Program-made: the position numbers and the translations under genes | In this document: one piece after another, positions 13,343 to 41,691 of the stretch | Layout: every line of letters starts with the position of its first letter | Position numbering within the stretch: position 1 is the first letter of the stretch | Notes under the pieces: generated by a model | What the model saw: only the letters and a program-made list of their open reading frames with translations | The model's database searches: none | What the model was told of the DNA's origin: nothing | Assembly (NCBI GenBank): GCA_040755755.1 | Contig: JBFLZW010000072.1 | Coordinates: forward strand, 1 to 64,000 | From: a bacterium | GTDB taxonomy: Bacteria > SZUA-182 > DTGQ01 | Length of the DNA stretch: 64,000 nt | Direction of reading: 5' to 3'

Positions 13343-14269
13343 TTAATGAACCACCGTATTTTCCACCGCAGGCTCCGGCAGTATCTTCATGGCCGCAACC
13401 TCCGGCTCCATCAGCCATTTTTCTGATAAGGTCAGGGCTTGGGGAATGCACTCGATAATCTTATTGACCTGGGTGGCCGGGGTCGGCCTGGCCAGTCTTC
13501 CTGCCTCACGGTTGGCCCGGGCCGCAATCAGACAGGCATCGATCAGGTCGATGCCCCGGTAAGCCAGGGCGGATAAAATGCCGGTTATGGTATCTCCGGT
13601 GCCGCCAATAGCTTCCAGTTCCGGGATGGAGGGTTCGCTCATGCTGTGGTAAATTTGCCCGCCACGGCAGATATGATCGGTGCTTCCTTTCACGAAGAGG
13701 ATATCGGCTGCATTTTTCCAGTGATAAGCCCGCTGGACCAGTTCGCTGGCCTGCTCGTTCATATGCCAGATGAACCCCCGGGTGTAAGCCGGATGGGCCG
13801 CTTTCTCATCCGCCAGAAAAGCCAGCTCTCCCATATCGGGAGTAAAAATGTCGTAATAGGGTGCATGGCCGCCTGCCTTGGCCACATACATGGAGCCTGC
13901 ATCGGCAATGAGCAGCGGTTTTTGCCTCACCAGTTTGATGGCTTTAATCAACCGGTTATTTTTCAGGATATCCGGCATGATATAGTGGAAAACCATAACC
14001 TGCGGATTCAATTCTGAAACGTGTTCGGTAAGGTAGTTATACACCTTGCTGCTGCCGTCCCGCTTGCCAATGTCCCCGGCCACGACGCACAGCGGAGCGT
14101 CCAGGCCGTATTGCTGACAGACCACGGCCACCGTGGTCATCATGGCCGCAGTCCCCCGGTTCTGATCCAGCAGATGGCCATTGATCACCAGTCCTTCGGA
14201 AGTGAGAATTCCCTGTCCGGCCAGGAGCGGTAATCCCTGCACGGGTATAGTGCCTGCCAAAACTAACAT
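13343..14269 (-). CDS. NnrD-like / ribokinase-fold sugar kinase family protein
   Basis: 308 residues resembling the NAD(P)H-hydrate dehydratase and carbohydrate kinase superfamily. DIFTPDMGELAFLADE recalls the TPHxGE segment, ILFVKGSTDHI matches the KG strand, and AIGGTGDTITGILSAL is the C-terminal anion hole with the catalytic Asp in GTGD. No YjeF epimerase domain is present. In this setting it may not repair NADHX but act on a cluster-specific metabolite. The start overlaps the DUF3343 gene stop by seven bases with a GGAGG site, so the two are coupled. It is the last gene of the ten-gene minus-strand cluster. Confidence 0.65.
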   Translation of the reverse strand: MLVLAGTIPVQGLPLLAGQGILTSEGLVINGHLLDQNRGTAAMMTTVAVVCQQYGLDAPLCVVAGDIGKRDGSSKVYNYLTEHVSELNPQVMVFHYIMPDILKNNRLIKAIKLVRQKPLLIADAGSMYVAKAGGHAPYYDIFTPDMGELAFLADEKAAHPAYTRGFIWHMNEQASELVQRAYHWKNAADILFVKGSTDHICRGGQIYHSMSEPSIPELEAIGGTGDTITGILSALAYRGIDLIDACLIAARANREAGRLARPTPATQVNKIIECIPQALTLSEKWLMEPEVAAMKILPEPAVENTVVH

Positions 14270-14829
14270 CGTTGTTCCTCCATAATTTTCAAAGCCTCTT
14301 CATAGGCCACGCTCAGGGAGTAAGCGCACAGGGTATAGCCGAGCTTGCGCGGATTGGGAGCATCGGAAAGGCGCTTGCCGATCATCTCCGAAGCCAGGTA
14401 TGGGACGTCGGGACATCCTCCGCCGGAAATGTTGACGATTTTCCAGCTCAACTTATGAACCGTAATCTTCATATTGGCCGCTTTGATCATCAGATAATCC
14501 CCAAAGTCGGTTATCCGGCAGAGCTTCAGCGGCTCCAGACGGTCTCCGGAAAGCGGCAGAACATCAAGAGGGGCAATACCTTCCTCTTTCAGGCGTCGGA
14601 CTATTCCCAACTGCTCCACCAGGGGAAAATCGATAGCCAGATCACAGCCGGTTCGATACTGCGCCGGCGGGCTTACGACCCCGATCTGATAACCACTGGA
14701 TTTTAAAACCTCTTCGGCTTTTATGACCTCAGTGGTATTGGAAAATATCAAAAGTCCCCTGGCCTGCTGTGAATCGGCATCGCTTGGGGTCTTTTTATTA
14801 TCAAAAATCCTGTTTAACAGATTCTTCAT
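14263..14829 (-). CDS. DUF3343-type (putative Se/S carrier-like) protein with extra C-terminal domain
   Basis: 188 residues. The N-terminal 70 residues (LLIFSNTTEVIKAEEVL, then YQIGVVSPPAQYRTGCDLAI) match the DUF3343 pattern, a small fold noted near selenium-metabolism genes and suggested to carry Se or S on the Cys of the G-C pair. The other 110 residues include NISGGGCPDVPYLASEMIG and an Ala/Tyr-rich helix, unrecognised here but with a further Gly-Gly-Cys that could be redox active. Standard DUF3343 proteins are about 80-100 residues, so this is a two-domain version. It is coupled to the kinase-like gene and 30 bases after YggS. Confidence 0.6.
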   Translation of the reverse strand: MKNLLNRIFDNKKTPSDADSQQARGLLIFSNTTEVIKAEEVLKSSGYQIGVVSPPAQYRTGCDLAIDFPLVEQLGIVRRLKEEGIAPLDVLPLSGDRLEPLKLCRITDFGDYLMIKAANMKITVHKLSWKIVNISGGGCPDVPYLASEMIGKRLSDAPNPRKLGYTLCAYSLSVAYEEALKIMEEQRC

Positions 14830-14859
14830 GACTCTCTCGTTCCTTCATTCACCAGGAGC

Positions 14860-15558
14860 TCAATCTCTGGGACCAAAGATGGCACTCCCCACCCGGACCA
14901 GGGTAGCTCCTTCCTCGATAGCTACCTCGAAATCGTGAGACATGCCCATGGATAGAGTTTTCAGAGGAGATGGCAAATACCGGTTGAGCTGATCGCGCAC
15001 ATCCCGCAAACCGGCAAAATATGGCCTCACCTTTTCAGGATCATCGACCTCGGGCGGTATGGTCATCAGCCCTTCCAGAGAAAGATGGGGCAGCTTGATG
15101 ATCTGCCCTGCCATCTCCCCTGCCTCCTGCGGCGCGATACCGGATTTTGATTCCTCCCCGGCCATATTTATCTGGATAAGGATCGACTGTATCTTTCCTT
15201 CTCTTTGTGCCCGCTGACTGATCAGCCGGGCCAGTTCCAGAGAATCCACCGTATGAATCAGGGTAAAGAGGGGAACAGCCAGCTTGACTTTATTGCTCTG
15301 CAGATGACCGATCAGATGCCACTCGATCGGATATCCGGTCAGCAGGGGAATTTTCTCCTGAGCCTCCTGAACATAATTTTCACCCAAAACCCTGGCCCCG
15401 GCATCGACAGCCTGGCGGATCTTTTCCATGCTCTGCTTCTTGCTGACCGCAACCAGGGTAATTTCCTCCGGTGAGCGGCCAGCCCGAAGCGCTGCCCGGT
15501 CAATGCGCTCTTTGATCCTTTGCCAGTTTTCCTTTATGCTTACGGTATTCTGGACCAT
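14860..15558 (-). CDS. yggS: YggS/PLPBP family pyridoxal phosphate-binding protein
   Basis: 232 residues, the normal size for the family. ITLVAVSKKQSMEKIRQAVDAG contains the PLP-binding Lys, GARVLGENYVQEAQEK the GENY signature, EWHLIGHLQSNKVK the conserved HxxGxLQxNK, and LSMGMSHDFEVAIEEGATLVRVGSAIFG the phosphate-binding end. It is a cytosolic PLP carrier that keeps vitamin B6 and amino-acid pools balanced and is not known to catalyse a reaction. Its position right after two PLP-dependent enzymes suggests it serves them here. The start has a GGGGAGAGA site. Confidence 0.95.
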   Translation of the reverse strand: MVQNTVSIKENWQRIKERIDRAALRAGRSPEEITLVAVSKKQSMEKIRQAVDAGARVLGENYVQEAQEKIPLLTGYPIEWHLIGHLQSNKVKLAVPLFTLIHTVDSLELARLISQRAQREGKIQSILIQINMAGEESKSGIAPQEAGEMAGQIIKLPHLSLEGLMTIPPEVDDPEKVRPYFAGLRDVRDQLNRYLPSPLKTLSMGMSHDFEVAIEEGATLVRVGSAIFGPRD

Positions 15559-15580
15559 CTCAATCTCTCCCCAGGGCCTG

Positions 15581-16978
15581 TTATTTCAAAACCGCCTCTT
15601 CCAGGCAGGGTGCATCACACCTGCCCTGGCTGCATTGATCTTCCGCCATATCCTGCGCTACCTCTTCCACTTTCTCCAGGAACATCATAAGATCGGCAGG
15701 AGTATGGGCCGTGGAAATCGCCCCGCCGCCGTGCATTACAAATACCCCTTTGTTTAACAGCCGCATCCTCAACTCCTTTTCCCGCTTTTCCAGATCACAG
15801 TCTACAGCCAGGGCATGGGAATCTTTCAGCTCTTCCAGCCTGACCTTGGGGAAATGAGTCATAAACAGGGAACCGATACCCGTACACCTGGCCGCAATCC
15901 CATGCCGGGCAAAAGCCCTCTCGATACCGCCCCTGACTTGAATTCCGGCAGCTTCAAGAGAGGGATAAATTTCCCGGGCATTTTCTTCGAGATGCCGCAG
16001 CATGGCTATGCCTGCCGTCATGCACAGGGGTGCACAGGAGAACGTCCCTCCGCCGATGAGTGTTTTCCGGTATTCAGGCAGATTAGCCGTCGGACTGCAC
16101 AGCTCCATGATATCCGCCCGGCCGGCGACTGCACCGATGGGCATCCCGCCGCCCAGGATCTTGCCCAGGGTGGTAAGATCGGGAGTAATATTATAGAGCC
16201 CCTGGGCTCCTCCCAGACCCACCCGAAAGCCGGTGATGATCTCGTCGAAGATGAGCAAAGCTCCGGCTTTCTGCGTCTCCTCACGGATGACTTTCAGGAA
16301 TTCCCGGTCTCCGGGGATAAAACCGCCCTCGCCCAGGATCGGTTCCATGATGACCGCAGCCAGATCATCGGCATGTTCTCTGATCCGGTCAAAAGCCTCC
16401 TGGGTATCGTTGAACCGGACCAGAACGGTATTCTGGATGGCATCCTCACAGGCACCGCCCCGCTTTCCCTGATTCAGGTCCGGGTTGTCGATCGTGGCTG
16501 AATGCGTGCCCGCACCATGCCATGATCCTTCCATTTTGATAAACTTCTGCCGGTCAGTAAAGGCCCGGGCCAGCCTGCGGGCATAAATGACCGCTTCGGT
16601 GCCGGAGCAGCAGAAGCGGACCTTTTCCGCCGAAGGGATGAGCCTGCTTACGATTTCGGCCAGTTCGATCTGAAGCTCATGAACAATGCCCCACTGGACA
16701 CCCTCCCGCACCTGCCTCTCCAGGGCGGAGGTGACCTGCCACGGCGTGTGCCCCAGAATGTTCAGGTAATGCCCCATCCAAAAATCCAGATACTCGTTGC
16801 CGTCAACGTCCCAGAACCGGGGCCCCTCGGCCCTGGCCAGATAACAGGGGTAGGGAGCGAAATAGCGCAAATTGTGGCTCACCCCGCCAGCCATGACCCG
16901 CGAGGCGCGGGTGTACAGATCGAGAGATTTCCCGGTCCGGGATCGATACTTTTGGTATTCCTGATTCAGAGAACTCAT
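15581..16978 (-). CDS. Class III PLP aminotransferase, glutamate-1-semialdehyde aminomutase-like
   Basis: 465 residues. Family marks are RVMAGGVSHNLRYF near the N-terminus, FWDVDGNEYLDF, VRFCCSGTEAVIYARRLAR, LLIFDEIITGFRVGLGGAQG (PLP-pyridine Asp) and TTLGKILGGGMPIGAVAG with the Schiff-base Lys. These are the HemL-like signatures, but the protein is longer than HemL (about 430 residues) and ends in a Cys-rich tail (DQCSQGRCDAPCLEE). HemL-like paralogues act as amino-group-shifting or transferring enzymes in secondary pathways. The gene starts five bases after the threonine-synthase-like gene. A role in haem synthesis is less likely because no hem genes are nearby. Confidence 0.8.
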   Translation of the reverse strand: MSSLNQEYQKYRSRTGKSLDLYTRASRVMAGGVSHNLRYFAPYPCYLARAEGPRFWDVDGNEYLDFWMGHYLNILGHTPWQVTSALERQVREGVQWGIVHELQIELAEIVSRLIPSAEKVRFCCSGTEAVIYARRLARAFTDRQKFIKMEGSWHGAGTHSATIDNPDLNQGKRGGACEDAIQNTVLVRFNDTQEAFDRIREHADDLAAVIMEPILGEGGFIPGDREFLKVIREETQKAGALLIFDEIITGFRVGLGGAQGLYNITPDLTTLGKILGGGMPIGAVAGRADIMELCSPTANLPEYRKTLIGGGTFSCAPLCMTAGIAMLRHLEENAREIYPSLEAAGIQVRGGIERAFARHGIAARCTGIGSLFMTHFPKVRLEELKDSHALAVDCDLEKREKELRMRLLNKGVFVMHGGGAISTAHTPADLMMFLEKVEEVAQDMAEDQCSQGRCDAPCLEEAVLK

Positions 16979-16983
16979 GTTGA

Positions 16984-18192
16984 CTACCCTTCCATTTCTG
17001 CCTGCAGCTCCGGAACATCAAGGCGCAGCCTGCCGGTGCAGCCGATAACTACGGTCTGGTCCGGCCGGATCATTCCCTTTTTGGCCAGCTTCTCCACTCC
17101 GGCCAGAGCAGCCAGAGATTCAAGACCTGCCTTCCCTTTGGGAATGCCATCGGCATGGAACAGCTCCAAAAGCCGCGGAAATTCTTTCAGTTCAGTTTTC
17201 TTTCCACCTTCAAAAACATCTTCAAACGTCACGCCGATCCTGCACAGATGAGGATAGGATTCAAAAATTTTCGGAATACCGATGCCGATTACATAGGTAT
17301 CGAGAACCGGTACCACCCGCTTGCCAACCGTACCTTCAACCAGACCGCGGGAGGCCAGAACCATCGGAGCGCATCCTGCGGGCTGAATGCCGCCAAAGTT
17401 CGGGCTCTTTTTGAAAACCTCCGTGCATCCCTTCCAGAAGGAAAAGATGCCCGTACCACTGCCCAGTCCCTGAACATACCAGTCAGGGATCCGGCCCAGG
17501 TCCTCCAGAACCTCAAGACCCAGGGTTTTCATCCCCTCGATTCTCATCTGGTTGTAAAACCAGTATTCTATGGGCAGATTCATCTTGTCGGCAAAGGCAT
17601 AGGCATTGGCAATGGCCTCATCGAAGGTAGTGCCGCTGTAGTGGATCTGGACATAGCTGTAATCATATGCGCCGTCGCCGGACATCATCCGGTTATACAA
17701 CTCCTCCCACCGCTCACGGGCATTATTCGGGACAAACATGTGCAGGCCCATCCTGCTGATGGCTGCTCCCCGGCAGTGAGAGATACCGCTGTCTCCGGTG
17801 CTGGCACCCACCAGTTCCCGGTAGCCCATCTCCTTCAGCCGGGAGAGGGTCATGAAGGCTTCCCGGTCCTTGAAGGTCTCGGTAGGCTGCATGGAATCCA
17901 GCTTGACATAGACCTCGGATAATCCAAACTGCCGGGCAATGTTGTGGCAGCGAATGAGCGGAATCTTTTTGATACCCAGCTCGATTGCGTTTTCCATATT
18001 GAAGAGGGGGAGAATTTCATGAAAACGCCATACCGAATCACCATACCGGGGATCGGGATAATTATCCCAGTTAACCTCCGGATAGTAGAATGGCAACAGT
18101 CCCTCCGGCGAGCAGTCGCAGTTTCTGACATGTTTATTAACATCATGGATTTTGCCGCACTTGACACACTGGCGATAAAATTGGCGGGCCAT
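16984..18192 (-). CDS. Threonine synthase-like PLP enzyme with N-terminal Cys motif
   Basis: 402 residues from the ATG at 18192, chosen because AAGGAGGA lies nine bases upstream. The frame is open for seven more codons. The N-terminus has a zinc-ribbon-like CVKCGKIH followed by CDCSPEG. QPTETFKDREAFMTL carries the PLP Lys in the FKD context of threonine and cysteate synthases, and VGASTGDSGISHCRGAA, VQGLGSGTGIFSFW and VVIGCTGRLRLD complete the fold type II domain. Expected chemistry is a beta- or gamma-replacement on a phosphorylated amino acid. Normal threonine synthase has SGNTG instead of STGDSG, so the substrate probably differs. It is downstream of the YedE-like gene. Confidence 0.75.
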   Translation of the reverse strand: MARQFYRQCVKCGKIHDVNKHVRNCDCSPEGLLPFYYPEVNWDNYPDPRYGDSVWRFHEILPLFNMENAIELGIKKIPLIRCHNIARQFGLSEVYVKLDSMQPTETFKDREAFMTLSRLKEMGYRELVGASTGDSGISHCRGAAISRMGLHMFVPNNARERWEELYNRMMSGDGAYDYSYVQIHYSGTTFDEAIANAYAFADKMNLPIEYWFYNQMRIEGMKTLGLEVLEDLGRIPDWYVQGLGSGTGIFSFWKGCTEVFKKSPNFGGIQPAGCAPMVLASRGLVEGTVGKRVVPVLDTYVIGIGIPKIFESYPHLCRIGVTFEDVFEGGKKTELKEFPRLLELFHADGIPKGKAGLESLAALAGVEKLAKKGMIRPDQTVVIGCTGRLRLDVPELQAEMEG

Positions 18193-18227
18193 AAAAAGGA
18201 TCCTCCTTTCCACATGCGGCCCTCTTC

Positions 18228-18289
18228 AGAGGGCGGTTTTCTTACAACGAAATACTTAAGAGGGCGGTTTTCTTACAACGAAATACTTA
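18228..18289. repeat. Perfect 31-bp tandem duplication at a stop codon
   Basis: The 31-base unit beginning AGAGGGCGG and ending AATACTTA occurs twice back to back (18228-18258 and 18259-18289), identical. The right copy ends exactly on the TAA of the YedE-like gene. It lies in the gap before the threonine-synthase-like gene, so it may lengthen the intercistronic leader. It looks like a recent slippage or recombination duplication. Confidence 0.9.
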
Positions 18290-19450
18290 CATTCCGGATG
18301 AACGATAATGCTTCCTCTGGTATTCTTCCGGAACTTCCCATTGCTCTTCCTGAGCAACCGATATCTTCCGGGCTTTAATCTTCCGGGTCCGAAAAGCGAT
18401 ACCGACCGCCAGAAGAAAAACCAAGCCGGTCAGTACGGCGACTTTACCGGCAAAGGTAGCGCCGGCAATGGTAGCGCGAATCTCCCAGCTTTGAACGATC
18501 CCTCCTCCGATCAGCATGCCCAGGAGAGTCAGACCTGCATCCGTATTCCCCTCACCGGCCATGATAACCTGCCGAAAAGGGCATCCGTTGGCCAGGACCG
18601 AGATCCCGCCCACCAGAAACATTCCCAGAAAGGACCAGCCATGAGCCAGATGAGATCCCGGCTGGCCGTTGATGCCAAGCCGGAAATGTCCGGTCAGAAG
18701 GGCCAGCCCCAGGGCTGTCAGGAACATGGCCAGAATGCCCTTGAGCAGAAAGCCGTTTCTGGCGATAAAAAAGTTCCGGAATCCGGCCATCATGCAAAAA
18801 GTCGACCGCTGCGCAAACCCGCCGATCAGGATGCCAGCCAGCAGGGAAATCCAAAGCGGGGCATGCATGGCTGCCGGGCCTTTGGCACCCAGGACGATGA
18901 AAGCAGGCTTTATCAGGATGAACAGAAGCAGGATGCTAAAAAAGACCGGCATAACCAGACCGTTGACCTTGCCAATTTCCTGCTCCCTCTCCAGGGCAAA
19001 ACCTCCCCGCAGGTACTGTAAGCCAAACCATACACCCGCCACAAATCCCAGAATAGCGGGAGCAGCCGTCAGGTCACCGGCAGAAAGGCGGAGCACCGAT
19101 TTTACCGGACAACCGATAAACATGGCTGCCCCGACCATAAGGAAAAATCCCATCAGGAACCGGATCAGGGCGGATGAGCCTCCCCGGACCCGAAACCGTC
19201 CGCTCATGAGGGCCATGAGAAATGAACCGATTACCAGGCCGATGATCTCTGGCCGCAGGTAGCTCATTCTCGCATTCTGGTGCAGATGGAGGGACCCGGC
19301 AATATTTTCCAGAAAGCAGGAGATGCAGATCCCCGAATTTTCAGGATTTCCCATGATAGCCAAAAAGATGCCAAGTCCTCCCAGGAGCACTCCGGTAATA
19401 ATTGCACTGCTCAGCGGTATCTTTTCTGCCTTATGGATAAGTGTTCTCAT
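18287..19450 (-). CDS. yedE: YedE-type selenium/sulfur metabolism membrane transporter
   Basis: 387 residues from the ATG at 19450, four bases after the TPR gene stop. The frame is open to 19528. About ten helices with internal duplication. Hallmarks of YeeE/YedE (PF04143), particularly the selenium-associated branch, are GNPENSGICISCFLENIAGS, followed by YLRPEIIGLVIG, AMFIGCPVKSVLRL, FAQRSTFCMMAGFRNFF and LANGCPFRQVIMAGEG. Conserved Cys in these repeats move thiosulfate- or selenium-type compounds across the membrane in studied relatives. No TusA-like or SelD gene is present in the window. Location among PLP enzymes and a DUF3343 protein supports a Se/S role. Confidence 0.85.
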   Translation of the reverse strand: MRTLIHKAEKIPLSSAIITGVLLGGLGIFLAIMGNPENSGICISCFLENIAGSLHLHQNARMSYLRPEIIGLVIGSFLMALMSGRFRVRGGSSALIRFLMGFFLMVGAAMFIGCPVKSVLRLSAGDLTAAPAILGFVAGVWFGLQYLRGGFALEREQEIGKVNGLVMPVFFSILLLFILIKPAFIVLGAKGPAAMHAPLWISLLAGILIGGFAQRSTFCMMAGFRNFFIARNGFLLKGILAMFLTALGLALLTGHFRLGINGQPGSHLAHGWSFLGMFLVGGISVLANGCPFRQVIMAGEGNTDAGLTLLGMLIGGGIVQSWEIRATIAGATFAGKVAVLTGLVFLLAVGIAFRTRKIKARKISVAQEEQWEVPEEYQRKHYRSSGM

Positions 19451-19454
19451 GATT

Positions 19455-19946
19455 TCACTCACACCCCTGGCCAAGCTTTCGCTGGCAGAAATACAGATTT
19501 TGCAGAAGGTTTGCAACCTGTGCGTCATTTGGCTTCAGTTCCCTGGCACGCTTGAGCTTGGGAATGTTTTTCTGGACCATGTCCTTGAGATTGGCCGATG
19601 CCAGCTCCACAAGGTCCGGATTATTTTCGATGCTCGTGCGGCATAAGGAGATGGCCTTTTCCATGTCTCCCTGCTGGTTATAAATTGCAGCCAGAAAGAC
19701 CTGCGACTCAGGTTTTTGAGGATATCTGTTCATAATGTTCTTCAATACCTTCAGGGCTTCCTCGTATTGTGCCGATTTTATAAGCCTCTCCACCTCTCCA
19801 TAGAGATTCTGATCAACAGATTTTGCCTGTTGCGGCTGAGCGGAGCCTGCAACCGGAAGCGGCTCCTGATGCAGGGCAACCATACCCGTAATCAGGGCAC
19901 TCAAGAGAATAATCAAGCCGATACTCAGGATATCCAGCCGGTCCAT
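19455..19946 (-). CDS. Membrane-anchored TPR protein
   Basis: 163 residues from the ATG at 19946. A TTG two codons earlier is possible but too close to the GAGGA site. An N-terminal hydrophobic helix (ILSIGLIILLSALITGMVAL) anchors it, with the rest probably periplasmic. VERLIKSAQYEEALKVLKNIMNRYP and AAIYNQQGDMEKAISLCRTSIENNP are two TPR-like helix pairs, followed by a less regular third. A protein-protein contact role is likely, perhaps docking the substrate-binding protein next to the permease. It begins two bases after the PhnD-like gene and ends four bases before yedE. Confidence 0.7.
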   Translation of the reverse strand: MDRLDILSIGLIILLSALITGMVALHQEPLPVAGSAQPQQAKSVDQNLYGEVERLIKSAQYEEALKVLKNIMNRYPQKPESQVFLAAIYNQQGDMEKAISLCRTSIENNPDLVELASANLKDMVQKNIPKLKRARELKPNDAQVANLLQNLYFCQRKLGQGCE

Positions 19947-19948
19947 GA

Positions 19949-20860
19949 TCAATATTCCTCGTAAGGAGACATCTTGCAGCGCCTGAGCATCTCCCTGAGA
20001 GGATCATAGTCGCTGTCTTTTACCTCGACGAAGCGCTCAAGCCCGGCACTTTTCAGAATCTTCACAACCTCTCCTCCCACCAGGGAGCTGTCTTCCTGGG
20101 TAATGCCGACGAGAAGGCTCTTGACTTTCTGAACAAGCTGAGGATCCACATGGGACAGGGCTGCAAAGGTGCAATATGCAATTGGCTCGCTTTCAGCCAC
20201 GATAGTAAAGTCATTCAGATCGATTTTCCCCTCTTCAGCCATCTGATCAAGGTCGATCCGCGGCGCTGCTCCTGCGTCATAAGCACCGAACAGGACCCCG
20301 TAGATAACCTTTTCATGCTTCCACGATCCCCCCGGAATATTATAGAAAGCCAGATCTTCATCCGGATTAATGCCGGCTTTCAGCATGAGATCATACTGGG
20401 CCAGAAAGCCCATGGGGGCCAGAGACGGTCCGAAAATCATGCTCTTGCCTTTCAGATCCTGAATGGTTTTGATACCGCTCTTGCGGCTGGCAATGATCGT
20501 GCCTGCATCCTTGTTGCCATACCTTCCCCGGATCTCTCCGGTCAGGGGGACGGCCTGATACCTTTCCTTAAAGATCACATACAGGATGGAATTGGTATGG
20601 GTAAAGTCGATCTCTTTTTTCTGGACCGCAGCCTCGACATCCTGGGTGTTCAGATAAATCGATTCCACCGGCCGCTTCAACTGCTCCGCCAGATAGGCGG
20701 TGATCGGCTCGAAACGGGCTCTCGATTCAGGCAGGCTGTTGCAGATCATATAACAGATTTTCAATGGCTTTTGAGAAGAGGCCGCTGGTTTCCGGCAGCC
20801 GAAGGCCAGGGTACACCACAGCACCAGCAGGCTTAAGATGACCGCTCCCTTTTTTAACAT
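19949..20860 (-). CDS. PhnD-like periplasmic substrate-binding lipoprotein
   Basis: 303 residues. The signal peptide ends in LAFGC, a lipobox with Cys at about residue 22, so it is a lipoprotein. The mature part has KPLKICYMICNSLPESRARFEPITAYLAEQL in place of the usual N-terminal strand, then EIDFTHTNSILYVI, IKTIQDLKGKSMIFGPSLAPMG and LFGAYDAGAAPRID, a layout matching PhnD/SsuA-type phosphonate-oxyanion binding proteins (PF12974). No ABC permease or ATPase lies beside it, so it may deliver a ligand to YedE or act as a sensor. GGAGG lies four bases from ATG. Confidence 0.8.
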   Translation of the reverse strand: MLKKGAVILSLLVLWCTLAFGCRKPAASSQKPLKICYMICNSLPESRARFEPITAYLAEQLKRPVESIYLNTQDVEAAVQKKEIDFTHTNSILYVIFKERYQAVPLTGEIRGRYGNKDAGTIIASRKSGIKTIQDLKGKSMIFGPSLAPMGFLAQYDLMLKAGINPDEDLAFYNIPGGSWKHEKVIYGVLFGAYDAGAAPRIDLDQMAEEGKIDLNDFTIVAESEPIAYCTFAALSHVDPQLVQKVKSLLVGITQEDSSLVGGEVVKILKSAGLERFVEVKDSDYDPLREMLRRCKMSPYEEY

Positions 20861-20878
20861 CGTATCCTCCGTTTGAAA

Positions 20879-20909
20879 AGTGGTCAGTGGTCAGTGACCA
20901 GTGGTCAGT
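20879..20909. repeat. Heptamer array (AGTGGTC)x4
   Basis: Four tandem units of AGTGRYC-type heptamers plus a partial unit, between the PhnD-like and OpuAC-like genes. The unit is the CAGTGRT sequence of 13187-13224 in another phase, same strand orientation. Confidence 0.75.
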
Positions 20910-20950
20910 AAATTTTTGTCTGGCCACCGGGCACTTTTTTTCCTGACTCA

Positions 20951-21589
20951 CTAGATTGCCCATCGAATCAGTTTTCTTTCCTCTAAGAATGCCTTGACCG
21001 CAACTTTCAGTTCTTTCTTCTGTTTTAACTCCCCGATGGCCTCATTGGAGACCTTGCCGCCAAGCTTATTGATCAGCCTGGGAAGGACCGGGAAGCGGTT
21101 CAGGACATCGCGTCGCGCTACACAAACCGCCTGATTCGGAATACCCTTCAGCTCTTCGGGGACATGAGGAAGGATAGCCGGATTGTCGTAACCGAAGGGT
21201 TTCAGCCAGATCAGAGAAAACCGCTTGTCAGACAGGTGCTTAACTGTGGAGTAAGCCTTATCGGGAGTTTCGATCCGGGCTTTTTCACCACCGAGAACAG
21301 TCAGCAGGCCAGAGCAGACATAATCCACATAGAGATCCAGCTCCTGCTTTTTGATAGCCTCCCGGCACTCATCCAGGGTTTTGAACTGGACAATATTTAC
21401 CTTTGTGCCCGTGCTCTCGCCGATCATCGTGGCCAGCATTTCAGCCATAACCTTCTGATCTTCGATATTCGCAACTCCCAGAGAAAGAATACGGCCAACG
21501 CACGGGATTGCCTTTGGCGGCAGAAAGCCGGCCAGGAACATCATCAATACAGTGACACTCAAGATCCTTCTTCTCATTTCTCCCCTCAT
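20951..21589 (-). CDS. OpuAC-like periplasmic substrate-binding protein
   Basis: 212 residues with an N-terminal signal peptide (VTVLMMFLAGFLPPKAIPC). The mature part contains LGVANIEDQKVMAEMLATMI, then VNIVQFKTLDECREAIKKQELDLYVDY and IPNQAVCVARRDVL, resembling the glycine-betaine/choline-binding family (PF04069), where the D-x-Y-x-D/E segment is typical. It is shorter than the usual 270-300 residues. No cognate ABC components are present. It lies between the ArsP-like permease and the PhnD-like protein, so it may be a second ligand-binding component of the cluster. Ligand unknown. Confidence 0.65.
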   Translation of the reverse strand: MRGEMRRRILSVTVLMMFLAGFLPPKAIPCVGRILSLGVANIEDQKVMAEMLATMIGESTGTKVNIVQFKTLDECREAIKKQELDLYVDYVCSGLLTVLGGEKARIETPDKAYSTVKHLSDKRFSLIWLKPFGYDNPAILPHVPEELKGIPNQAVCVARRDVLNRFPVLPRLINKLGGKVSNEAIGELKQKKELKVAVKAFLEERKLIRWAI

Positions 21590-21689
21590 CTCATTCTTCC
21601 TTTGATCATACGCTACGCAACCATCACTTCCTCAGACTCTCCCTTTGGATGCTGGAGGCAGTATTCAGTTGTCAGTTCTCAGTATTTAC

Positions 21690-21724
21690 TGACCACTGAC
21701 CACTGATCACTGGCCACTGGCCAC
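21690..21724. repeat. Inverted heptamer array (TGRCCAC)x5
   Basis: Five tandem TGACCAC/TGATCAC/TGGCCAC units, the reverse complement of the heptamer arrays at 13187 and 20879, in the gap between the OpuAC-like gene and the permease gene. Confidence 0.75.
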
Positions 21725-21739
21725 TTGCTTCTCCCTCTC

Positions 21740-23608
21740 CTAACCTCTGAGCTGCTTCAGCCAGTCAAAGTAACTCACTAAGCCCTGGGAAATCCTGTCG
21801 CCAAAATGAGCAGTAATGGAGATAGGTATTTCCCTCTGAAATTTGACAGCTTCGCCAAACCGGACACCGTAGTGCTCTGCCACCTGGTTGGCCGCTGTCG
21901 TCCAATCTCCGGTTGAGCCATCGTGAGGCCCGGCCACAACGAGCAGGCTGTACCCGTCATCGCGGAAGGCATAAATGTCCTCGATCTCCTGGCTGGAAAA
22001 GGGACGGCTGTCTGCCTGCCCCGACAGTATCCACAGTTGCCCGTAGCCTTCCAGGGCTGATCTATCCAGGTTCGGCAGATCCTTGCGGGCAGCGAAGGTG
22101 ACCTGAAATTCCCCCTCTTCAGTAAGAATCGCCTCCAGTCCTTCCCGGAAAGAATCGTTGGTCAGGCCACGATCCACATAGGTGTTGTAAATCAGGATGC
22201 GGTTATTGTCCGGATGGATTGCAGTCTGTTTCAGCCAGCGGGCAATGTTTCTGATATACTGCTGATTTCCCTTCATGTGAAGAGACCCGTTGCGGAAACG
22301 GTTCCAACTGGCATCAAACACAATGCCGCTTCCTCCTTCCATATCCTCATACCAGGCAATAATAGGCTTTCGGTCCGGATCAACCGCCACCCGGACAGCT
22401 TCACCAGATTTGGAAATTATGGCCGACTCTCCACCGGCCAGAGCCGAGACTTTGGCCAGAATCGGACTGTTGGTATCGACATGGTTGATAAACAGCAGAT
22501 TACCAAAGGTGTAGGCGAAAAATATCGTGCCCAGGATACTGATGCCCATATACAGGACAAAGACTCTCTTTCTAAACATGCTCCACAGCAGCGTCATGGC
22601 AGGAATGGCGGTTACCGGCCCGCCGATAAGGAAAGCCAGGGCGGCGCTGTTATCCATCGTTCCGGGCAAGGATGCCTTGATATGATAGAGAATGCTCGAA
22701 GCACTGATCTGGTGTAAGAAAAGCGGTATACTGCCTACGGTTACCCAGATAACGCTTAAAGTTCCCCCGTGGCCGAACAGACTTTGAATGTAGGTATGAG
22801 GGATATACCTTTCCACCACGCAGCCGACGGCAATGCCCACCAGAACATATTTTCCGATCAGCCAGAACATCTCCGTAGTTTTGGCCAGAAAGATGATCAG
22901 CTTGTTTTTCGTTTTCCGGGCTATCCGGTTGCTCATCTTCTCATTGCAGGTGCAGCGAAGCCGCTCGTCAGGATAGTCCGGATCATGAAAATCACCTTCC
23001 GGAATACCTCCGTCAAGGAATAAATCAGAGGCCTCAAATCCCAGTCTGCTGACGAGCAGGGTGACAACTCCAGCCAATACCCCCATCAGAAAGGCCACCA
23101 GGGTCCGGACAAGAGCCCAGTGCATTCCCAGGTCATTCAGCGTCAGGAAAAAGGTCGTCGGGCTCATCAGGGGTGATGAAATGAGAAGCGCCATGGCCGG
23201 TGCCAGAGGAAGACCGGCAGCGAGGAGAGCAACCACTGTGGTCAGGATGCCGCAGGAACATAAGGGGCTGAAGACGCCAATAAAGGCAGCCAGAAAAATC
23301 CCGCTGTATTTATACCGGATCAGCACTTTCCGAAGCCGGATGTGGAATTTGTAAGTCCTGATATAGCCGGCAATGATAATACCGATGAGAAAGTAAATAA
23401 ATACTTCCTTAAGCTCCATCAATATTCCATGCCGGTCGATAATGAGAGACCAGAGCTCTTTTCCGAAGGAAAGAACCATCGACTGCCGGTGGTGAACCCA
23501 GACATGCCAGGTAACCAAAAGGAGTCCCATCAGGATCAGCGAGCCGAGTGTCCAGTTCACCGTTCTCTTTGTTTTGCCATGGAGCTCACAACTTTCCCTT
23601 TTGCTCAT
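21740..23608 (-). CDS. ArsP-like (DUF318/PF03773) permease with fused C-terminal soluble domain
   Basis: 622 residues. Helices fill about residues 20-360. GVFSPLCSCGILTTVVALLA followed by GLPLAPAMALLISSPLMSPTTFF is the first permease repeat with the Cys-Ser-Cys pair, and the second half carries GSIPLFLHQISASSILYH and IGGPVTAIPAMTLLW. Members export organoarsenicals or unknown small species; Cys-Ser-Cys may bind soft anions or metals. Residues after about 400 form a soluble domain (IIAWYEDMEGGSGIVFDASW, ILIYNTYVDRGLTNDSF, YSLLVVAGPHDGS) like GATase/DUF4350-type alpha/beta folds, unusual in this family. It is the first gene of the Se/S-type cluster. A cytosolic loop includes a CTCNEK motif. Confidence 0.8.
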   Translation of the reverse strand: MSKRESCELHGKTKRTVNWTLGSLILMGLLLVTWHVWVHHRQSMVLSFGKELWSLIIDRHGILMELKEVFIYFLIGIIIAGYIRTYKFHIRLRKVLIRYKYSGIFLAAFIGVFSPLCSCGILTTVVALLAAGLPLAPAMALLISSPLMSPTTFFLTLNDLGMHWALVRTLVAFLMGVLAGVVTLLVSRLGFEASDLFLDGGIPEGDFHDPDYPDERLRCTCNEKMSNRIARKTKNKLIIFLAKTTEMFWLIGKYVLVGIAVGCVVERYIPHTYIQSLFGHGGTLSVIWVTVGSIPLFLHQISASSILYHIKASLPGTMDNSAALAFLIGGPVTAIPAMTLLWSMFRKRVFVLYMGISILGTIFFAYTFGNLLFINHVDTNSPILAKVSALAGGESAIISKSGEAVRVAVDPDRKPIIAWYEDMEGGSGIVFDASWNRFRNGSLHMKGNQQYIRNIARWLKQTAIHPDNNRILIYNTYVDRGLTNDSFREGLEAILTEEGEFQVTFAARKDLPNLDRSALEGYGQLWILSGQADSRPFSSQEIEDIYAFRDDGYSLLVVAGPHDGSTGDWTTAANQVAEHYGVRFGEAVKFQREIPISITAHFGDRISQGLVSYFDWLKQLRG

Positions 23609-24601
23609 CTTGCCATCCTTACCATAAGTCCTGCTGAAGAATTAAAATGGTTATTAACCGCCCGAAGCCTGGACGGTTGTCGATATTTCAAAGTTGAAGG
23701 TTTCATGGATAATAGACAAAGGAAAATCATTTTTCTTGCACTCTCACTCCCTAGCCATTAAATTAATCAGGATATGTACCAAGATAACCTTTGCTCAGAA
23801 TCCACGGCAAATACAATCTTGGCTCTGTTTCCAGCAATTTTGGTGCCTGGTTCATGCTGCCGTAAAATCCTTGGAGCAGCAAGCCCGGGGATATACTACC
23901 CGGGGATATAGGGGATATACTATATGACAATATGAGGAAGCAATATGATCTACCGGCTTATTGTCATGTAAGGAGCCCCTTTCCTGGCATCCTGATTTCA
24001 GGTTATCAGCTTTTCCCTTCACTATTTTAAATTATTGCAACACTGATGCCAAGAGGATAAGTTAATTTTTAGCCAATTTTATTCCGATGTATTTTTTGTC
24101 CCTTTTGTACTGATTATAACTGAATGTTTTAGGATAATTAAGCACCTGATACCCATATCTTCAAGATCATGGTTCTTAAAAATATTTATGGCCATAAAGT
24201 CACCATTGACGATTCCCTCCAGGCGGTAATTTTTTTGATCCCTGGGAGGAGTGGCTTATGAGTTATATTTTCCAGGTCATCAATTTTATGTTCTTTTCGA
24301 CGTAGATACTACATAAATTTAGTACCTGCAAAGAATATTGATTTTTATATCTATCTTACCATATTTTATACTATGGTATATATATCATTTATACGAGCGA
24401 TTGAAGCCGACCTTTCCCTTGTAGTCAATTATCAATATATTTTATATAATATAAAAAATGGTTCAATAATTTCATGGAAAAAATAAAGTTGATACAATGC
24501 ATCATCATATGTAAAAATTTGCATAGTACGCAATTCCATCTGCCTCTGGCGCAAGACCTGGCAGCAGCAGTAAAAAAATGCCATTCCGGAAAACAAAATT
24601 C
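23609..24601. other. AT-rich intergenic gap upstream of tRNA-Glu
   Basis: About 1 kb without a convincing gene. The left end must hold the promoter of the ArsP-to-kinase run. Around 23883-23925 the word GGGGATATA occurs three times. From about 24040 to 24500 the DNA is clearly more AT-rich than the coding DNA on both sides. No RNA family, CRISPR or attachment site could be recognised. It may be a decayed insertion next to a tRNA gene. Confidence 0.5.
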
Positions 24602-24630
24602 TTTACAAAGAAGGGGAGAGTGTGTATAAT
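24602..24630 (+). promoter_or_regulatory. Sigma70-type promoter of tRNA-Glu
   Basis: TTTACA at 24602-24607 and TATAAT at 24625-24630 are separated by 17 bases, nearly the consensus spacing and sequence. Transcription would start near 24637, about 22 bases before the tRNA 5' end. Confidence 0.8.
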
Positions 24631-24658
24631 CTGCTCTTACATTTACTCAATAAGAAAA

Positions 24659-33913: not shown

Positions 33914-36754
33914 TCAATCGTCTATCTTTATATTATCATCTAAGCCCAATTCACGTAAAGCGATTTTGGTCTCTTCGATCTTTTGCTCTGAGATGCCCTC
34001 ATCAGGAGCGACCTCTACTTTTAAGGTTAACTTTAGACCTTTGCCCACAGCAAACTTAGAAAGAACTTTGGTGTAAAAGTTCATCCATTTCTGTGGCTGG
34101 ACATCTCCGGTCCAGGCCAATCTTGCGGCACCAGCTCTTGGCAAAGGCGAAGGTGTAACGGTAGCATTTCCTCCCCTCGGTTGTACCCCGGTGAAATCTG
34201 ATAAATTGCCGGGCTCAGGCGGGACTGGAGGTCCCGGAGGCCATGCATAATTAGGAGTAGGTGTATCAGGTGAAGAGGATGTTTTTTTCGTGCTTAAGCA
34301 GGTTTCTGCAACCTCCTTGGTGATGATGAACATATCATCTGATATCTCCACTTCGTGAGCAGTCAAGCTTTTATTGTAAATAAATGGATTATAATCACCC
34401 ATCCCTGTCTTACCAACATAAGCCAGCAAACCGTTACTTACCCCCCTGGCGATGGTGTCTTTAATTATCTCAGGCTTAAGAAGCCTTGGGAATTGTGGTG
34501 AAGCGTAGAACATATCCCGAACGGACTTCGTGCTCCACTCCGTGAAAGCGGGAGGCCAGTTTGCTATCAATTTAAGGGGGCTATACCCTTCTGTTATCTC
34601 ATCTTCCTGCCGTAGCCGGTTCAGGATAAAGGTAACTATGGTATCGGCTGCACTGGAATGAACCAACCCGAGGTCTATGGGGCGCATGGTGTTATCTTTG
34701 CCCAAAAATAATATGTTCTTATAGGTTCGCCAGACGCATTCCCTGAGGTCTCTTTGCGCTTTCTGGTGGCTTTCAAACAATTGGCGTCTTTGCCCCTCAT
34801 CAAGACGATGGGACTCTTCCTCATCCCGAATGTCCTCCCAGGCAAGAGCTTTTCTCGCCTCATCGCGGATGGTACTGGCTCCGTCCGGAATACACCAAAT
34901 CAAGGCGCTTTTATAGGTTCTGGCTGAAGTACCATACTCTCTGGTCATGGTATCCACCCAATCGGTAGTCTTCCTTTCATCCTGCATTACCTGGTCAGGG
35001 GCAACAATTATTAACGTCAAGGCAGGCCGGTCAGGGATCTGGATGCTTTTTTCTGGGAAAAAGACTTGCTCTACGATATTTGATCCGCAGGTGAATACCT
35101 TCTGTATCTCATTGCGTACCCGCTCATCGATCTTCGACGACTGGATGCTGGCCCTCCGGTCAGCCAAGATTTTATTCAGGTTCTTTAAAAAGCTAAAGCG
35201 GTACTTATTTCGCTCCACACAGAGAAAATAACAGGTGTTGCTCAAGGCTTCAAGAACAGTCTCCACATTGCCGATATCCAGTCCTGGTTCAGCTACAGCA
35301 ATACGGATCTCAGGTACAGTGGCTTCAGCCTTCATTTGTCCTCCATTCGATTCGAAAAAAATGGCTGTAGCTGCTTTCTTATGAAGGCAGGCTTTTTTTA
35401 TGGTATCCACTGCTTCCTTATCAAGACGGACAGCATGAGAATCCTGCTTGCCGCAAATGTCTGTGGTGACAGCAGTTTCAAACTGCTTGAGGTCACCACC
35501 CAATTGCTCGAGTAGGGCTGGACGAAACAGCATTGAATCATCGAGCGGGGCTGAACCAAGGCCAATGAGGGAATCCCCATATGTTCTCTTATACCCTTCC
35601 TGGTAAGCCCTGGAAACCCATATGGCTAAAAGCCTCAAGATTCCCCGTGTCTGTTGAAAACGGGGTAATGCCTGCCACTTCCGCTCAAAGACTGAGAGCA
35701 ATACCGGGTGGAACGGGTAGGTAGCTTCGAATGCTTCCCTGGCATGGTCAACAGGAAACCAGCTTGGAATCTGCAATCGATGGTCAACAATCCACTCTGC
35801 ATATTCGCTGCAGGTTTGCTTCGCATCCCTGCTGAGTAAAACTTTCCCATCGCTGCCTACCGCTTGTAGTTCCCACTCAAATAACCGGCGACGAATAATC
35901 TCCGATGTTTCGCTCTCCGCAGACATAATTACCGCCTTGCCAAGACGGTCCAGCATCTTCTTGATACGCTCATAATCCAGCTTGTCTTCAACGGTCATCT
36001 CCAATTCTTCAGATGCAGGTACAGACACTACCAGGACAATAGTTTTTTCACCACGAGCAGTCTCTGACAAATTATGAAGAAAATCATAAAACTGTACTGA
36101 CAGGCCGCTTTTGCGATTCCGGCTGACATAGTTCATCAACTCGTCCATAAGGATTAAGCAGGGCCGATCCTGGGGAAGTATTCTGCGGATTACATCTCCT
36201 GCCGGAGCAATCATCTGTTTTTCGTGCTCAGCCACAAGAGCAAAGGCTTCCTCGCCACCAAGCTGATAGGCAATTTCACCCCAGGGAGTTTTCCGAATTG
36301 GTCTTCCGTCATGGCCGCCGCGGCCGGTTAAGGAATCGAATTCCGTACCGACAAATACGGCCGTAGCTGCCCTGGGCACACTGTTTATCCCTGCCTTGGA
36401 CAGTATTTTATTCACCCCGGGCCAGCTATTGGCATCTGGTCCGCTCTGGGCCAGATGATAGAGCAAAGTCAATGCGTGGGTTTTCCCGCCTCCAAATTGG
36501 GTAGCCATATTAAAAACAGCCGAGGCTTCAGTTCTCTCACCGGATAATCGTCGAAGAGCTTCAGAAGCAAGGGCTGTTAAATTTTGGGTCAGATAGGTAC
36601 GTTCAAAAAACTGTCTGGGATTTTGATATACACCCGGCGCTCTTCCATCCCGAACCTGGTCGAGATGAACGGCAAACTCAGCAGCATCGAGAGGCTTGCC
36701 TTCACATAAATCTTCGCGCGGTGTAACAACCTTATACCAGGGTCTCAGGTTCAT
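33914..36754 (-). CDS. DUF499 P-loop ATPase of a helicase-methyltransferase defence locus
   Basis: 946 residues of COG1483/DUF499 type. FNMATQFGGGKTHALTLLYH at about residues 81-100 is the Walker A, and RPCLILMDELMNYVSRN near 196-212 the Walker B. VVSVPASEELEM and IIRRRLFEW follow. A long middle part is helical and the C-terminus after a Pro-rich linker (PPGPPVPPEPG) ends in a basic-acidic domain. DUF499 ATPases are found with DUF1156 methyltransferases and SNF2 helicases in defence islands; their exact part is not settled. The gene starts 13 bases after the methyltransferase gene with a GGAGAATG site. It is the last gene of the operon. Confidence 0.8.
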   Translation of the reverse strand: MNLRPWYKVVTPREDLCEGKPLDAAEFAVHLDQVRDGRAPGVYQNPRQFFERTYLTQNLTALASEALRRLSGERTEASAVFNMATQFGGGKTHALTLLYHLAQSGPDANSWPGVNKILSKAGINSVPRAATAVFVGTEFDSLTGRGGHDGRPIRKTPWGEIAYQLGGEEAFALVAEHEKQMIAPAGDVIRRILPQDRPCLILMDELMNYVSRNRKSGLSVQFYDFLHNLSETARGEKTIVLVVSVPASEELEMTVEDKLDYERIKKMLDRLGKAVIMSAESETSEIIRRRLFEWELQAVGSDGKVLLSRDAKQTCSEYAEWIVDHRLQIPSWFPVDHAREAFEATYPFHPVLLSVFERKWQALPRFQQTRGILRLLAIWVSRAYQEGYKRTYGDSLIGLGSAPLDDSMLFRPALLEQLGGDLKQFETAVTTDICGKQDSHAVRLDKEAVDTIKKACLHKKAATAIFFESNGGQMKAEATVPEIRIAVAEPGLDIGNVETVLEALSNTCYFLCVERNKYRFSFLKNLNKILADRRASIQSSKIDERVRNEIQKVFTCGSNIVEQVFFPEKSIQIPDRPALTLIIVAPDQVMQDERKTTDWVDTMTREYGTSARTYKSALIWCIPDGASTIRDEARKALAWEDIRDEEESHRLDEGQRRQLFESHQKAQRDLRECVWRTYKNILFLGKDNTMRPIDLGLVHSSAADTIVTFILNRLRQEDEITEGYSPLKLIANWPPAFTEWSTKSVRDMFYASPQFPRLLKPEIIKDTIARGVSNGLLAYVGKTGMGDYNPFIYNKSLTAHEVEISDDMFIITKEVAETCLSTKKTSSSPDTPTPNYAWPPGPPVPPEPGNLSDFTGVQPRGGNATVTPSPLPRAGAARLAWTGDVQPQKWMNFYTKVLSKFAVGKGLKLTLKVEVAPDEGISEQKIEETKIALRELGLDDNIKIDD

Positions 36755-36767
36755 ATTTCATTCTCCG

Positions 36768-39700: not shown

Positions 39701-39779
39701 TTTTTTCCCTGCGGGCATTTTCAGAAATCCGCTTGATGGGAAGATCCACTTCGATTAATCGCTTGGGGTATCGATTCAA
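36768..39779 (-). CDS. DUF1156 adenine-specific DNA methyltransferase with zinc ribbons
   Basis: 1003 residues, COG1743-like. It starts at a TTG (39779) with GGGAG upstream. IEVDLPIKRISENARREKSI is the DUF1156 start. VVDPFAGGGSIPLEALRVGA near residue 160 is the SAM motif, and FTDPPYYDMISYADLSDFFY near 547 holds the DPPY catalytic motif of N6-adenine (or N4-cytosine) enzymes. Zinc-type Cys lie in CEGPGCGAE and CPCCGF. A Gly-Asn repeat (about residue 800) is low complexity. It should mark host DNA so the helicase and ATPase act on unmodified phage DNA. Its first codons are duplicated at 40583-40684. Confidence 0.88.
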   Translation of the reverse strand: MNRYPKRLIEVDLPIKRISENARREKSIRHGHISTLHIWWARRPLAACRAVICAALWPDPADPLCPDSFREAAKEWIRKWANNYRALLSPESLKRFIGFQKNPDKFNDNLELRYALLDFIADFSNWDNSTRGEYLETSRALTQTAHEALGGMPGTKPLVVDPFAGGGSIPLEALRVGADAFASDLNPVAVLLNKVVLEYIPKYGQQLANEVRKWGEWIKKEAEKELAEFYPKDPDGATPIAYLWARTIRCEGPGCGAEVPLIRSLWLAKKGSRSVALRMVPNQREKRVDFEIIQNAKAQDIKDGTVRRGSATCPCCGFTTQVDSVRRQLKERKGGTADAVLLCIVTTRVGQQGRFYRLPNDYDIKILKNAAQELKQRDKAHVGQLSLLPNEPVNPLPHSVNRVPLYGMETWGDVFTPRQALMLSTFSRLVHKAGEKVATNHEKGLASAIQSLLALVLDKQADLGNSLNAWEPIAQCPRHLFGRQAIPMVWDFAEGVPLSISSGSFKVFFDTLVKTLSNIGCNWSVGQIECSSATAHPLPDSAAQCFFTDPPYYDMISYADLSDFFYVWLRRTLNGKQWESPLTPKAEEIIVEPTPVESVGIKDVNFYLKKMTQAMSEGQRILSPGGIGVVVFAHKSTSGWEAQLQAMMDAGWIITGSWPIDTEMATKVAGIGQSRLMSSVHLVCRPRQKLNDLLHPADIGDWRDILAELPTRIHEWMPRLSAEGVVGADAIFACLGPALEIFSRYSRVEKASGEQVTLREYLEHVWATVSREALNMIFKGADATGFEEDARLTAMWLWTLSTGVNGNGNGNGNGKAKSVPNERQEDDTEDEESPATGIKVSGFVLEYDAARKIAQGLGAHLEHLTSIVEVKGDKARLMPVSERTRHLFGKDEDKAPQAKKQKKKTRQLALFVTLDEVEEESGGWGEKNVPKLGITILDRIHQSMILFAAGRGEALKRFLVEKGVGRDQRFWRLAQALSALYPAHCDEKRWVDGVLARKKGLGF
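39720..39767. repeat. Direct repeat copy 1 flanking the HepT/MntA module
   Basis: 48 bases (start TTCAGAAATCC, end CGCTTGGG) inside the methyltransferase 5' end. Matches 40625-40672 at 46 of 48 bases. The similarity of the encoded starts (MNRYPKRL and MTQFPKRL) extends a little further. The HepT/MntA pair lies between the copies. Confidence 0.9.
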
Positions 39780-39803
39780 ACCGCATGCTCCCTGAGAATT
39801 TAC

Positions 39804-40151
39804 TTATTTTTCTAGTTCTTCAATAATTTTTTCTATTTTTTCTTTTAACTCAGGAATCTTGTCCTGTATAGCATCCCATACAATATCCCAGTTCACTCCA
39901 AAATAATAATGGATAATTTTATCTCTCATCCCAGCGATTTTTTTCCATTGAATGTCTGTGTATCTTTTTTTGAAATCATGAGAAAGACTTTTTACTGCTT
40001 CACCAATAATTTCAAGGCTTCTGGTGCAACCTCTTTTCAGTAATTCATGAGAGATAAAATCTTCATAGGTAAATCCGCTGGTTTCATGTAAGAGAAATTT
40101 TGTTTCATCCAGGATATGTTTAAGATACGGTAAGTTCTGCTTCATAACCAC
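39804..40151 (-). CDS. hepT: HepT-like HEPN toxin
   Basis: 115 residues (DUF86/PF01934). The HEPN active site is GMRDKIIHYYF, giving R76-x4-H81-x-Y83, the exact RX4HXY motif. In studied HepT toxins the Arg and His form an RNase site and the Tyr is AMPylated by the MntA partner to silence the toxin. It overlaps the mntA frame by ten bases, the usual arrangement. The module is set between two direct repeats of the methyltransferase gene start (39720-39767 and 40625-40672), so it appears inserted in the defence operon. The C-terminus is a Glu/Lys-rich helix. Confidence 0.92.
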   Translation of the reverse strand: MVMKQNLPYLKHILDETKFLLHETSGFTYEDFISHELLKRGCTRSLEIIGEAVKSLSHDFKKRYTDIQWKKIAGMRDKIIHYYFGVNWDIVWDAIQDKIPELKEKIEKIIEELEK

Positions 40152-40441: not shown

Positions 40442-40582
40442 TGTAAACTCCCAAAATGCTCAGTTCTCCCTTTGGGAGGGGAGCATTACCAGTTTGTCAA
40501 AATCGAATTTCTCGTTCTCCATCCAGATCACCTCTCGCACCCTGTTGAGATGGCATGATTGACGGTTACGGTGCATTGGTTT
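40442..40582. other. Gap upstream of mntA with a weak 38-codon frame
   Basis: A minus-strand frame from 40576 to 40460 would encode 38 residues ending KLVMLPSQREN, with an internal ATG (MENEKFDFDK). No Shine-Dalgarno or family match is convincing. The stretch probably came in with the HepT/MntA module and may hold its promoter. Confidence 0.3.
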
Positions 40583-41631: not shown

Positions 41632-41691
41632 TACTATTTTATGTATTCACATTCATGTGAGGGGATACACTTGTAGTCGATAGAGATTGCA

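Follow-up and report, generated by a model that had tools for sequence, protein, structure and literature searches.

YedE transporters, TusA-like (SirA-like) proteins and DUF3343 have already been tied to SelD (Lin et al. 2015; PMC5322559), and a specific, high-affinity system for the import of selenium has yet to be identified in prokaryotes (PMC13188914). Here, we analysed a stretch of 64,000 nucleotides of bacterial DNA (the window; contig JBFLZW010000072.1, source genome G000 of 5.26 Mb and 97.6% completeness), in which a YedE gene and the gene of a two-domain DUF3343 protein (DUF3343x) lie in a cluster of ten genes on the minus strand (13343-23608). The other eight encode an NnrD-like protein, an OpuAC-like and a PhnD-like binding protein, a tetratricopeptide repeat (TPR) protein, an ArsP-like permease, YggS and two pyridoxal phosphate (PLP) enzymes resembling ThrC and HemL. 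We found that the cluster is real, conserved and rare. With a probability of about 0.4, we read the ten genes as a specialised branch of a Desulfobacterota-type module for chalcogen (sulfur or selenium) delivery, which would feed the synthesis of an amino compound. A pathway with this gene set is described nowhere in the literature searched, as a first-pass annotation of the window had supposed.

Is the cluster maintained outside the close relatives of its host? The ThrC-like enzyme, which was accompanied by the cluster at every occurrence, is present in 3 of 60 genomes (the source genome counted in). Of 395 genomes from the phylum to which the Desulfobacterales genome C00003060 (G060) belongs, one has it, and a pattern search across 84,980 species genomes, able to detect close relatives only, returned three loci. 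Two loci, one from the genus (L006) and one from the family of the window (L008), hold the ten genes complete and in identical order. Beyond these, the linkage reaches one distant genome, G060, which lies outside the listed class of the window and, by the kinship table, apparently in another phylum. Its locus L007 keeps seven genes in window order (PhnD, TPR, YedE, ThrC-like, HemL-like, DUF3343x and NnrD-like; 31-72% identity) and adds NicO, a second TPR protein, a beta-helix protein and a major facilitator superfamily (MFS) transporter; YggS and ArsP are missing, and a contig end hides the OpuAC position. A PhnD profile search of 389 genomes gave no additional window-type locus. Purifying selection acts on all ten genes (dN/dS 0.042-0.253 against the same-genus copy), with the ThrC-like gene as the most constrained (0.042), and the TPR protein has the lowest protein identity of the ten.

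The second domain of DUF3343x, searched in 194 relatives of G060, was matched in 70 genomes, 68 of them strongly. We mapped 49 typical loci, nearly all from Desulfobacterota and counted apart from the window branch and from three loci with a split YedE, and found YedE, TusA, DUF3343x and the NnrD-like gene together in 48. SelD belongs to the locus in 20 of the 49, in 15 of them at a distance of no more than 600 bp, as far as contig ends allow. A third arrangement of the module, lying near SelD, is seen at L056, L146 and L147, where YedE is matched as two halves and the gene order is inverted; G060 counts among these three and also holds the window-type cluster L007. Elsewhere the NnrD-like family is seldom encountered: of 193 genomes of window relatives, 5 have it, four of these in the window's own taxonomic order. 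We found no mention of such a protein beside YedE, TusA, DUF3343 or SelD in the literature searched. By phylogeny, the YedE-DUF3343x-NnrD-like core of the window is homologous to the widespread YedE-TusA-DUF3343x-NnrD-like module and set apart from it: window-type copies are monophyletic in the trees of the NnrD-like protein (87), DUF3343x (82) and YedE (100; the six loci having YedE in the tree). The window YedE scores 392.8 bits against TIGR04112 and typical copies about 482 (cut-off 200), five cysteines being invariant in both. In one selenium-type module (L145:8565-9238), TusA and the DUF3343 gene are separated by a gene pair on the opposite strand that, by eye, resembles an AbrB-type antitoxin and a PIN-domain toxin.

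Desulfobacterota YTD clusters, which are more abundant in disproportionation, also begin with YedE and TusA (PMC9751629, PMC12998232, PMC13293266), so that the ten genes could be pictured as a YTD-like dissimilatory module for sulfur oxidation or disproportionation with added genes. We consider this very improbable: such a module requires both TusA and the type II DsrEFH trio, the 308-residue NnrD-like kinase fold is unlike DsrF or DsrH, and the window-branch YedE stands apart from that of the typical module. Membership in a YTD cluster proper is refuted, as the ten genes contain neither TusA nor a DsrE domain.

The window branch comprises seven loci (the window, L006, L007, L008, L041, L042 and L043), and in none of the seven does TusA or SelD adjoin the core. 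L041 and L043 present the series OpuAC, NicO, TPR, PhnD, beta-helix, TPR, YedE, DUF3343x and NnrD-like, followed by a ThiS-like carrier, a JAMM-like protease and an ELFV dehydrogenase. ThiS-like and JAMM-like genes also occur at L042, whose genome (G457), although otherwise in long contigs, contains N stretches that break genes and make absence calls unsafe. In L041 (472-6440), the row past the NnrD-like gene consists of ThiS-like, JAMM-like, ELFV dehydrogenase, two XcbD/ADSL-like lyases and ThiF, and this row is possibly a thiocarboxylate pathway of its own, as yet undescribed. The sister clusters carry in addition a NosD-like beta-helix protein and an MFS exporter. ThrC-like and HemL-like genes were found at none of L041, L042 and L043; because ThiS/JAMM-type genes replace them there, the window branch has two alternative tailoring sets, and the ThiS, JAMM, ELFV dehydrogenase, lyase and ThiF genes of the sister clusters (contig permitting) point to sulfur-carrier chemistry. 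As far as sequence comparison goes, the conserved unit is YedE, DUF3343 and the NnrD-like protein, to which PhnD, TPR (and OpuAC) belong in the window branch. The first-pass view of the ten genes as one set thus stands for YedE, DUF3343, NnrD-like, PhnD and TPR; it does not extend to YggS and ArsP, missing in L007, nor to the PLP pair, which is one of the two tailoring sets.

Profile scores and trees indicate that neither PLP enzyme of the cluster is an ordinary ThrC or HemL orthologue, a point left open at first pass. The source genome has its ordinary ThrC (C63, 196 bits) and HemL (C38, 642 bits) elsewhere, while the cluster copies reach 66 bits against the TIGR00260 cut-off of 167.1 and 330.8 bits against the TIGR00713 cut-off of 527.3, and in both trees the cluster copy and the true copy of the genome fall in separate clades. 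The ThrC-like enzyme joins the Methanosarcina cysteate synthase (PDB 9k3c; TIGR03844) and two other paralogues at 100/99, on long branches. With cysteate synthase it has in common the ThrC-family fold and the PLP-phosphate loop GSGTG, accompanied by a PDWY strand (PDYY in cysteate synthase), whereas ThrC has VGNAG. It differs from cysteate synthase in its PLP lysine motif (FKDRE, not FKETE), in its substrate loop (STGDSG, with aspartate in place of asparagine, not SAGNTA) and in a profile score of 72.1 bits for a cut-off of 324.9. An N-terminal CxxC...CxC motif is present, and the NS(I/V)NP stretch, which binds the substrate phosphate in threonine synthase, is altered. The HemL-like enzyme shares with GSAM (HemL) the class III fold, the PLP lysine motif (here LGKILGGG) and the arginine of the substrate-carboxylate site, but SQFEA has become MHGGG and GTLSGNP has become GTFSCAP. 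The SQFEA glutamate of GSAM is tied to mutase behaviour; because it is missing, the HemL-like enzyme is at least as likely to act as a plain transaminase as a mutase. Beta-replacement followed by an amino shift, the chemistry proposed in the first-pass annotation, may be inferred from such a pair. In a further genome (L089 of G020), a PALP enzyme on the cysteate-synthase side of the ThrC tree appears, by eye, to be fused to a C-terminal acyl-carrier-like domain.

The tree places the ThrC-like enzyme, on long branches, beside cysteate synthase, an enzyme of archaeal coenzyme M (CoM) synthesis, and the product could also be a sulfonate or organosulfur cofactor akin to CoM, made without selenium: a sulfite-like nucleophile and a phosphoserine-like acceptor would yield cysteate or an analogue, followed by class III transamination. 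In the same direction point the L041 lyases, with 440-463 bits to XcbD, an enzyme of bacterial CoM synthesis, and the PhnD-like protein, which is related to binders of pyramidal oxyanions (PtxB for phosphite, AioX), sulfite being shaped likewise. We regard this as unlikely, because the XcbD scores lie under the cut-off of 600 and are surpassed by those of the same lyases for a general subfamily of adenylosuccinate lyases (461 and 561 bits), ComA, ComDE, XcbE and sulfopyruvate decarboxylase are absent from the cluster, and the core module is selenium-linked elsewhere.

Is the element selenium or sulfur? The source genome makes selenoproteins: its SelD has an in-frame TGA and SelA is also present, as it is in every window-type genome. 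The full DUF3343x-NnrD-like set was found only once in this genome, so that the cluster might simply be its selenium uptake module, supplying SelD at another locus, with the PLP enzymes as passengers or engaged in PLP-dependent selenium recycling. This is decidedly unlikely in our view. Two other loci (L057 and L058, assigned by eye) hold the canonical genes: one has SelD together with FdhD, the other SelB accompanied by DUF3343 and YedF-like genes of its own; genome G002 of the window family has SelD and SelA and lacks the NnrD-like module; G060 holds the window-type cluster besides its SelD-linked module; and the strongest constraint in the cluster falls on the ThrC-like gene. Across genomes, DUF3343x presence does not track SelD presence (59 of 68 versus 105 of 126, p = 0.68), and the tie to selenium therefore comes from physical linkage only. 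The selenium association ascribed at first pass to YedE and DUF3343 is borne out by the homologous modules near SelD and finds no counterpart next to the window-branch core.

The canonical selenium region L058 (G000:C2:70000-87000) carries, by eye, a SelB-like gene, a DUF3343 gene of 90 codons, 2-hydroxyglutaryl-CoA dehydratase-like, activase-like and YedF-like genes, with Pst-like ATP-binding cassette (ABC) genes and a LysR gene in its vicinity. Three sister genomes (G457, G463, G532) were considered as selenium-free, having no SelD at E<=1e-70, and were rejected as such, since SelA was above cut-off in all three. A hidden selenocysteine was considered for PhnD, TPR and YggS, which terminate in TGA, and was discarded: the read-through frame is either short or runs into the following gene, as judged without systematic comparison to relatives.

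In DUF3343x, the match to PF11823 is limited to residues 25-90, in a ferredoxin-like arrangement, and is followed by a conserved second domain, in line with the two domains recognised at first pass; Cys62 (checked in 59 sequences), Cys139 and Cys168 are invariant. No Foldseek match to its fold was obtained at E<=0.001. Its modelled second domain may weakly resemble the dimerisation domain of the persulfide reductase 6pfz (Z 6.0, root-mean-square deviation (rmsd) 3.0, 76 aligned), a Z range that may reflect only a common arrangement. The NnrD-like protein, which had no match in a sequence search of the PDB, was modelled as a ribokinase fold (pLDDT 90.9), with the NAD(P)HX dehydratase TM0922 (Z 19.7, rmsd 3.1, 229 aligned) and pyridoxal kinases tied as structural matches. 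Its GGTGD motif (G222-G223-T224-G225-D226) is invariant in 35 sequences; it passes PF01256 (42 bits, cut-off 27) and stays under the cut-off of the NnrD profile TIGR00196 (32.3 of 129.85 bits).

On the membrane side, the relatives of the PhnD-like lipoprotein, which has conserved Cys40, Cys230 and Cys295 in addition to its lipobox cysteine, include the phosphite binder PtxB as well as AioX and ArrX from arsenic systems, and the place of the ArsP_1 permease of the window is taken in the Desulfobacterota copies by a His-rich NicO permease. These proteins would suit a role in metal or metalloid handling, in which a thiol or selenol metallophore is made or recycled, or arsenic- or organometal-like compounds are handled, with ArsP or NicO as the matching permease; ThiS, JAMM and ThiF sets are also known from thiocarboxylate metallophore pathways, and the NosD-like protein and MFS exporter of the sister clusters would fit. 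We nevertheless hold such a role to be improbable, since the ten genes include no ars regulator, reductase or methyltransferase and no outer-membrane receptor, and the weak likeness of the ArsP permease to the SO_0444 Cu/Zn exporter and to SaoE stays far under both cut-offs. The SAO organometal system (SaoE, NF040736) was rejected at 79 bits for a cut-off of 325.

The preferred reading, a chalcogen delivery module feeding amino-compound synthesis, would work as follows. In the periplasm, the PhnD-like and OpuAC-like proteins would bind a small anion or soft ligand; YedE would bring sulfur or selenium into the cell, and the invariant cysteines of the DUF3343 protein would carry it. With an activated, O-phosphoserine-like amino acid as substrate, the cysteate-synthase-like PLP enzyme could then exchange the leaving group for this sulfur or selenium nucleophile, after which the GSAM-group enzyme would catalyse a transamination or an amino-group shift. 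YggS would serve PLP housekeeping, the NnrD-like protein might phosphorylate or repair an intermediate, and the ArsP-like permease might export the product or a toxic excess. A small amino product containing sulfur or selenium, either element, fits best. That the uptake-and-carrier chain and the cysteate-synthase-like enzyme make specifically a small seleno- or thio-amino product serving as a cofactor or metallophore, the two tailoring sets of the branch being interchangeable, is a more doubtful extension.

Several observations weigh against the delivery module. None of the cluster genes has an experimentally tested substrate, and YedE itself is without a proven selenium substrate, its deletion in Methanococcus maripaludis having given no clear effect (PMC11097638). 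The ThrC-like enzyme scores far under cut-off to both cysteate synthase (72 of 324.9) and ThrC, and joins the tree by a long branch. TusA, the usual partner of YedE, is absent from the ten genes, as are SelD, SelA, sulfur-assimilation genes and any ABC permease or ATPase that could serve the binding proteins.

The comparison contributes two candidate parts, the DUF3343 second domain and the NnrD-like kinase-fold protein, which accompany YedE, TusA and SelD throughout Desulfobacterota, and the window cluster is a version of the module redirected from SelD toward PLP chemistry. If the reading holds, it would lead to a new small selenium- or sulfur-containing metabolite, and the cargo of YedE and DUF3343 would become testable.

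All ten open reading frames were found at their coordinates, and Pfam and NCBIfam domain searches bear out each gene name (Table 1), so that the gene order, couplings and motifs described at first pass are upheld with two corrected starts. The YedE start, listed at 19528, lies too far upstream and was moved to near 19450, the start site of its homologues; the ThrC-like start was moved from GTG 18213 to ATG 18192, because the GTG precedes the Shine-Dalgarno sequence and homologues begin at the later methionine. With both corrections, the intergenic spacings from 5' to 3' are 150, 90, -4, about 4, 94, 5, 22, 30 and -7 bp. No known riboswitch was detected in the non-coding stretch upstream of the first gene.

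Table 1. Genes of the cluster and its upstream region, listed in the direction of transcription (window coordinates; corrected starts).
Feature	Position	Strand	Support
Non-coding stretch, ~1 kb, upstream of first gene	23609..24658	.	promoter-like sites
ArsP_1-family permease, 622 aa, C-terminal extension	21740..23608	-	ArsP_1 134 bits
Short OpuAC-like periplasmic binding protein, 212 aa, conserved Cys30 and Cys75	20951..21589	-	OpuAC 36 bits
PhnD/PtxB-like lipoprotein binding protein, 303 aa	19949..20860	-	Phosphonate-bd 157 bits
Membrane-anchored TPR protein, 165 aa	19455..19952	-	TPR domain
YedE chalcogen transporter (TIGR04112)	18287..19450	-	392.8 bits, cut-off 200
ThrC/cysteate-synthase-like PALP enzyme, 402 aa	16984..18192	-	PALP 124 bits
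Class III aminotransferase, GSAM group (HemL-like), 465 aa	15581..16978	-	Aminotran_3 177 bits; hemL 330.8
YggS/PLPBP-type PLP homeostasis protein, 232 aa	14860..15558	-	YggS 223 bits, cut-off 106
Two-domain DUF3343 (Se_S_carrier) protein, 188 aa	14263..14829	-	66 bits, cut-off 25
NnrD-like protein, 308 aa, ribokinase fold, GGTGD motif	13343..14269	-	Carb_kinase 42 bits, cut-off 27

Two further features lie on the minus strand of the window. At 33914-45192, three genes match the Hma anti-phage system: an AAA+ ATPase (HmaC, 391 bits), a DNA-adenine methylase (HmaB, 438 bits) and an SNF2 helicase (HmaA, 635 bits). At 46255-57372, we noted by eye four membrane subunits of the proton-pumping or antiporter type (NuoL/M/N- or Mrp-like), with two-component signalling genes between them.

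In summary, the cluster shares parts with several known systems. With YTD, or YeeE-TusA-DsrEFH type II, clusters (PMC12998232, PMC13293266) it has in common a YedE-type transporter with small cytoplasmic carriers, as found in Desulfobacterota, but it has DUF3343x and a ribokinase-fold protein and neither TusA nor DsrE/F/H. The CysO/CysM/Mec-type and thiocarboxylate siderophore pathways share ThiS-like and JAMM-like genes with L041-L043 and ThiF with L041, whereas the window cluster is without all three. The selenium neighbourhoods (PMC5322559) share with the window a YedE above the TIGR04112 cut-off and the DUF3343 domain, and homologous modules adjoin SelD; their TusA/YedF and SelD are not found alongside the window branch, which instead has a second domain on the DUF3343 protein and, in the window, the NnrD-like protein, the binding proteins and the PLP enzymes as additions.

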